Shown here piece by piece: positions 1,771 to 2,369 of a stretch of 64,000 nt of DNA (position 1 is the first letter of the stretch; each line of letters opens with the position of its first letter). The DNA lies in the NCBI RefSeq assembly GCF_003865375.1, contig NZ_RQVS01000001.1, positions 62,001-126,000 of the forward strand, given 5' to 3'. The position numbers were made by a program, and so were the translations under genes. This DNA is from Gulosibacter macacae. Its GTDB lineage: Bacteria > Actinomycetota > Actinomycetes > Actinomycetales > Microbacteriaceae. The notes under the pieces were generated by a model. It had not been told where the DNA came from. It was given only the letters and a program-made list of their open reading frames with translations, and ran no database searches.

Positions 1771-1786
1771 ATACCCTAGGGGGTAT
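1771..1786. promoter_or_regulatory. Probable CsoR-family operator (ATACCC-TAGG-GGGTAT)
   Basis: The inverted repeat ATACCC/GGGTAT flanks a TAGG core, 29 bp before the start of the Cys-rich mini-protein and about 290 bp before the CsoR-type regulator. G-tract/C-tract inverted repeats flanked by AT are the known operator type of CsoR/RcnR/CstR repressors. Autoregulation of the small operon is inferred. Confidence 0.7.
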
Positions 1787-1814
1787 AAAAATTACCAATC
1801 AATGGGAGTTTCTG

Positions 1815-2000
1815 ATGTGTCGACCGATCAATTGCAAGGTGTGCAATAAGACGACCTGGGCGGGCTGTGGCCAGCACGTTGCTGCGGTCAAGGCGAGCGT
1901 GCCCGCCGGGCAATGGTGCAATGGCAAGCACACGGATGCCGAAATTGCCGCGAGCTCGAACAGTGAAGGTGGCTTCTTTAGTCGCCTGTTCGGTCGATAG
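1815..2000 (+). CDS. Cys-rich small protein linked to a CsoR-type regulator
   Basis: A 61-residue protein starting at ATG 1815, which has GGGAG six bases upstream; longer in-frame starts have no such site. Five cysteines (2, 7, 10, 18, 35) and two histidines (21, 39) cluster in the first 40 residues, including CKVC and AGCGQH, so metal (Zn or Cu) or thiol chemistry is likely. The tail ends FFSRLFGR, possibly membrane-associating. I recall similar short actinobacterial proteins opening CRPI.CK.C.KTTWAGCGQHV, but their function is not established. It lies just downstream of the CsoR-type operator and upstream of the regulator, so the two are probably co-induced. Confidence 0.75.
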   Translation: MCRPINCKVCNKTTWAGCGQHVAAVKASVPAGQWCNGKHTDAEIAASSNSEGGFFSRLFGR

Positions 2001-2072
2001 TCCAGTACGGATTAATAAGTCGATAGGATTGCGCGGTCGCTATGGGCAACCGCAGCAGAAAGGAGCGTTGGC

Positions 2073-2369
2073 ATGATCAACACGGAGAACCTGGATGCGG
2101 AAGCGAAGGCCGAAGCAGAGGCAGCTCAGAAGCGCATCCTCAATCGCCTGCGTCGTGCGCACGGTCAGCTTAACGCGGTCATCAATGCCGTCGAACGTGG
2201 CGATAGCTGCCGCGATGTGGTGACGCAGCTTTCGGCGGTGTCGAAGGCGCTCGATCGCGCTGGGTTTGCGATCATTGCGACGTCGATGCGGGAATGCCTT
2301 GCCGACGAAACTGGCGATGCCGAGCTCTCGCCGGAAGAGCTTGAAAAGCTCTTCTTGTCGCTGGCTTAG
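2073..2369 (+). CDS. CsoR/FrmR (DUF156) family repressor lacking the Cu-site histidine
   Basis: A 98-residue all-helical DUF156 protein with a strong AAGGAG site before its ATG. The family fingerprint is present: RLRRAHGQL, then C46, [12 protein letters not shown], then C75. C46 and C75 are 29 residues apart, as Cys36 and Cys65 are in mycobacterial CsoR. The position of the copper-ligand His61 (four residues before the second Cys) is Ser71 here, and the Tyr before the first Cys is also Ser. The C-x-C pair without His is the pattern of the persulfide-sensing CstR branch, so a sulfur or thiol signal is as likely as copper. Its probable targets are the operator at 1771 and the Cys-rich mini-protein. 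Confidence 0.88.

Follow-up and report, generated by a model that had tools for sequence, protein, structure and literature searches.

A Cys-rich mini-protein linked to a probable CstR-type sulfane-sulfur regulon in Gulosibacter macacae

What does a DUF156 repressor sense when it keeps the two Cys of a copper sensor and lacks the His, and what is the task of the small Cys-rich protein encoded beside it? Both questions are raised by a locus in a 64-kb stretch of the Gulosibacter macacae genome (the window). The locus begins with a CstR/ScCsoR-type operator (ATACCCTAGGGGGTAT, positions 1771-1786), an exact match to ATACCCN4GGGTAT and, in a pattern scan, its single copy in the window. It lies 28 bp 5' of the start of an open reading frame for a 61-residue mini-protein (1815-2000, plus strand), a putative zinc finger and probable target of the regulator, with Cys at residues 2, 7, 10, 18 and 35, His at 21 and 39, and the tail GFFSRLFGR. 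The 98-residue DUF156 (CsoR/RcnR family) repressor follows on the plus strand (2073-2369), and its fingerprint positions X, Y and Z are occupied by Cys46 (codon 2208-2210), Ser71 (2283-2285; His in metal sensors) and Cys75 (2295-2297). The operator, the mini-protein and the regulator with C46, S71 and C75 were all found where the initial annotation had placed them. Elsewhere in the window (3944-5227, minus strand), one open reading frame fuses GNAT acetyltransferase and AAA ATPase domains.

The regulator belongs to the CsoR/RcnR (DUF156) family, with 79.2 bits against PF02583 (cut-off 22.8; 3e-22). CsoR binds Cu(I) via the X-Y-Z residues, of which Y is a highly conserved His, and CstR works through the Cys pair at X and Z (PMC5146963). 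The C46-S71-C75 of the window regulator departs from the C-H-C of the copper sensors and, keeping Cys at X and Z but lacking His at Y, has the residues of CstR. Ser71 had been taken for an unusual variant. Among 31 regulators of mini-protein loci, however, position Y is Ala in 16, Gly in 8, Ser in 5 and Thr in 2, and His in none (0/31), so that a rare Ser variant is rejected and a residue other than His is the rule in the clade (31/31). The best PDB match is 7mq1/7mq2, CsoR by its PDB label and CstR according to PMC9774590; 7mq1 also lacks His at Y, with Asn there instead of Ser. The window regulator shares Cys at X and Z and sulfur-oxidation targets with CstR (Staphylococcus aureus, Enterococcus, 7mq1/7mq2), and its clade differs from CstR by a C-terminal EKLFLSLA and, in many members, an extended N-terminus. 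Our tree cannot place the clade confidently beside SpCstR, or relative to the other references, because the reference branches are long.

The only other DUF156 protein of this genome (C5:38306) has C-H-C and adjoins a copper P-ATPase. It scores 131 bits against the model of the copper sensor RicR, under the cut-off of 175, and is a separate CsoR/RicR-like protein that serves as an internal control. The CsoR/RicR copper sensors belong to the same family and have operators of the same G/C-tract style, but they need C-H-C at X-Y-Z, whereas the window regulator has C-S-C. The absence of His at Y and the separate CsoR in the genome disfavour copper sensing and support the earlier suggestion of another inducer, which is probably persulfide. 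By these residues, and by an operator and targets of the sulfur-oxidation type (PDO/rhodanese, TauE), the regulator is very probably a CstR-type member of an already known kind. Plasmids of Mycobacterium intracellulare and Rhodococcus also carry CstR-like regulators, 65-69% identical to the window regulator, which adjoin FAD/NAD(P)-binding oxidoreductases and RND/MMPL transporters.

The operator connects the locus to other genes. In Streptomyces coelicolor, the DUF156 protein ScCsoR binds ATACC-N6-GGTAT until polysulfide, acting through Cys37 and Cys66, releases it; its targets are a persulfide dioxygenase (PDO), TauE, a rhodanese and ScCsoR itself (PMC7533328). The window operator equals this published site. 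The exact pattern ATACCC-N4-GGGTAT occurs four times in the G. macacae genome, against 0.10 occurrences expected from base composition (Poisson p 4e-6), and the other three sites lie 24-48 bp 5' of their genes. On contig C23 the operator precedes a TauE/SafE exporter (PF01925, 2e-48), on C37 a metallo-beta-lactamase-fold persulfide dioxygenase-rhodanese, and on C34 (at 134198) a TsoY-family membrane protein (NF047644, 2e-134; L070:3763-5013). A 2026 review counts TsoY among the selenoprotein families (PMC13188914), and a link of TsoY to sulfane sulfur may therefore be informative. Because exact operators also precede these sulfur genes elsewhere, the locus very probably forms the centre of a CstR-type sulfane-sulfur regulon whose genes are scattered. 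The compact unit of its own envisaged in the initial annotation is thereby rejected, and in relatives the mini-protein often lies inside cst-like clusters. The accompanying statement that no sulfurtransferase or copper ATPase is encoded nearby holds in so far as the window contains no rhodanese and the copper ATPase is on another contig, but it misses the sulfur genes of the regulon elsewhere in the genome.

Operator-like sites with one or two mismatches were left out of the regulon. Two one-mismatch sites were read, one of them within a gene (C36). The other (ATACCCTGGGCGGTAT, C12:159105-159120) lies about 10 bp before the open reading frame of an MFS transporter, which may be a further target or a chance match. 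A scan for sigma-70-type promoters at the operator found no consensus promoter. No close homologue of the CoA-disulfide-reductase-rhodanese that stands near mini-proteins of relatives turned up in G. macacae (best 33% identity).

Of the characterised systems, ScCsoR (SCO0620) shares with the window regulator the DUF156 family, two Cys at equal spacing, the 16-bp ATACC-N6-GGTAT operator, and the control of PDO-rhodanese and TauE together with autoregulation (PMC7533328). The two regulons differ in that the genes are clustered in S. coelicolor and scattered in G. macacae, where the TsoY-family protein is an extra member. The regulator, PDO, rhodanese and sulfite transporter are described for S. 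coelicolor, and a Cys-rich mini-protein is not (PMC7533328). Control at a distance has a precedent in the CstR-like TTHA1953 of Thermus thermophilus, whose sulfur-gene targets lie at a distance from its own locus and whose DNA binding is not abolished by metals under reducing conditions; it differs in controlling the Sox pathway through another operator of 20 bp (PMC10318464). In the open-licence literature we found no Cys-rich partner of CstR, and no linkage to a mini-protein is reported there for the CstR systems of S. aureus and Enterococcus.

A scan of GTDB genomes recovered 39 relatives of the mini-protein, 48-86% identical over the best segment and all from genomes with actinobacterial names; the protein also occurs in 75 plasmid records, often without annotation. 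The operator is found within 150 bp 5' of the mini-protein in 28 of the 39 loci. Counted by length, 41 operators fall in the 5.85 kb upstream of mini-proteins and 7 in 367.6 kb elsewhere, an enrichment of about 370-fold, which supports the earlier proposal that the mini-protein is controlled through this G/C-tract operator. In the family of the host, 200 genomes were scored: the mini-protein occurs in 90, the regulator in 95, and the two together in 84 (Fisher 6e-36). Far from being absent near most close homologues of the regulator, the mini-protein occurs in 84 of the 95 regulator-positive genomes and lies within 5 kb of the regulator in 62 of those 84, and the proposed pairing withstood this check. 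The link is strong and not absolute, since the mini-protein was not detected in 11 genomes with the regulator and a perfect operator is absent from 11 of the 39 loci. Neighbours in many mini-protein loci are CstR-like regulators, PDO-rhodanese, TauE, rhodaneses, DUF2892 proteins and thioredoxin; FAD-dependent CoA-disulfide-reductase-like enzymes also occur.

In 22 genomes the two genes are far apart or on separate contigs, and 20 of these were read. The operator is kept before 17 of the 20 distant mini-proteins (including 4/4 of the short-form copies, described below), with one other site in 119 kb. In genomes without a detected regulator the operator precedes the mini-protein in 0 of 6 (p=0.0004), a count to be read with some of the six genomes incomplete, kin genomes non-independent and all six copies of the short form. 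With these limits, the contrast between the two sets of genomes is nearly a natural experiment on direct control. The mini-protein is the regulon's most regularly linked, previously undescribed target, and its tight, specific link to a CstR-type regulon is what is new here.

The mini-protein has no known family: searches of Pfam, NCBIfam and the PDB gave no family over cut-off. DUF5651 (PF18892) scores 15 bits, below the gathering cut-off of 27, and matches 13 of 47 members weakly (best E 4e-4). The pattern C-x4-C-x2-C-x4-W-x-G-C-G-x-H is kept in 57/57 distinct sequences, and in 56/57 the motif ends in C-x-C or C-x(1-3)-H. Interchange of Cys and His at a single site is a usual feature of zinc ligands. 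The conserved pairs and this interchange at the last putative ligand follow, as a pattern, what is seen in zinc fingers, and therefore suggest that the mini-protein is one. Since Cys2 follows the initiator Met, removal of Met would expose an N-terminal Cys. The AlphaFold2 model (mean pLDDT 79) folds the Cys-rich part into two strands and a helix and has lower values in the tail; with this moderate-confidence model, Foldseek found no significant relative (best E 5.0). Two forms occur, a long one ending in GFFxRLFGR and a short one of about 38 residues without the tail, often encoded downstream of the long. This second mini-protein (37-39 residues, MCARITCxxCGKPTWAGCGxHIEEALxGVPxADRCxC) follows the long form within the same cluster in L015, L017, L020, L021, L027, L030, L031 and L035, and some loci have three copies.

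We consider it very likely that G. macacae has a CstR-type regulon with the mini-protein as one of its targets. The mini-protein and regulator are encoded in one two-gene unit under an operator that is probably autoregulated. By analogy with characterised relatives, the repressor would occupy ATACCC-N4-GGGTAT as long as reactive sulfur is absent. A rise in sulfane sulfur would persulfidate C46 and C75 or link them by polysulfide, so that the repressor leaves the DNA and four scattered units are derepressed: the mini-protein with the regulator, the PDO-rhodanese, the TauE sulfite exporter and the TsoY-family membrane protein. As proposed for Streptomyces, the dioxygenase would oxidise persulfide to sulfite, which TauE would export.

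For the mini-protein itself, we infer from its sequence both zinc binding and a role in sulfur handling, as a zinc-bound sulfane-sulfur acceptor or a zinc-thiol protein. The likeliest reading is a thiol protein that contains zinc and accepts or buffers sulfane sulfur, probably folded around zinc held by C7-x2-C10 with C35 and the last Cys or His, and its further thiols (the N-terminal C2 and C18) could accept, carry or buffer sulfane sulfur. The acceptor function is put forward tentatively. It is similarly doubtful, if possible, that the mini-protein founds a new class of zinc-finger sulfane-sulfur acceptors and acts as a core effector in the persulfide defence of actinobacteria, where persulfidated zinc-bound or N-terminal thiols might store, carry or report reactive sulfur. 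CstR-type regulons have been studied via their enzymes and exporters (dioxygenases, rhodaneses, exporters), and here, throughout the sampled family, a target very tightly linked to the sensor is a very small protein that has no family name, is annotated as hypothetical at most and is often left unannotated. Should its role lie in handling sulfane sulfur, persulfide homeostasis would gain a non-enzymatic step, and its gene would serve as a marker of actinobacterial reactive-sulfur defence.

The main rival to a role in accepting or buffering sulfane sulfur accepts the CstR-type regulon and makes the mini-protein a zinc-finger co-regulator or anti-repressor, which would bind the CstR-like repressor, RNA polymerase or nucleic acid. 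Its tight linkage to the regulator gene and its zinc-finger-like invariants would fit such a function, as would a weak, sub-threshold resemblance to zinc-finger families and the conserved GFFxRLFGR tail, which could be an interaction or membrane helix. A co-regulator is nevertheless hard to reconcile with mini-proteins that often stand far from the regulator and yet under the operator, as an effector would, with the six genomes that have the mini-protein and no detected regulator, and with short paralogues that have no tail; we regard it as rather unlikely. We give far less credence to the regulator being a metal sensor (for Zn, Ni, or Cu with altered ligands) and the mini-protein a metallothionein-like scavenger. 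DUF156 is mostly a family of metal sensors, the mini-protein has five Cys and two His, and FrmR binds metals in vitro without a full ligand set (PMC5016687). However, Y is never His in the clade, the other operators and the neighbouring genes lead to sulfur genes and to no metal transporters, the genome has a dedicated CsoR with a copper ATPase, and replacement of Cys by His at a single ligand is more easily explained by a structural zinc site than by a metal sponge. Least credible of all is that operator and regulator drive the divergent minus-strand gene (start near 1648) with the mini-protein as a passenger, for although the intergenic region is common to this ThDP-enzyme-like open reading frame, the operator accompanies the mini-protein in unrelated contexts across many genera, isolated copies included.

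The closest relative with the module belongs to the same genus as G. macacae (L091, G100), and in it the operator is followed first by the regulator and then by the mini-protein, the opposite of the window order; in two other genomes of the genus both genes are absent. A single IMG/VR match (IMGVR_UViG_2915157839) has the mini-protein gene at the very end of a contig classed as viral, beside a phage-type integrase and tRNA-Arg. The gene most likely lies on the host flank of a prophage junction, and a phage origin of the mini-protein was rejected.
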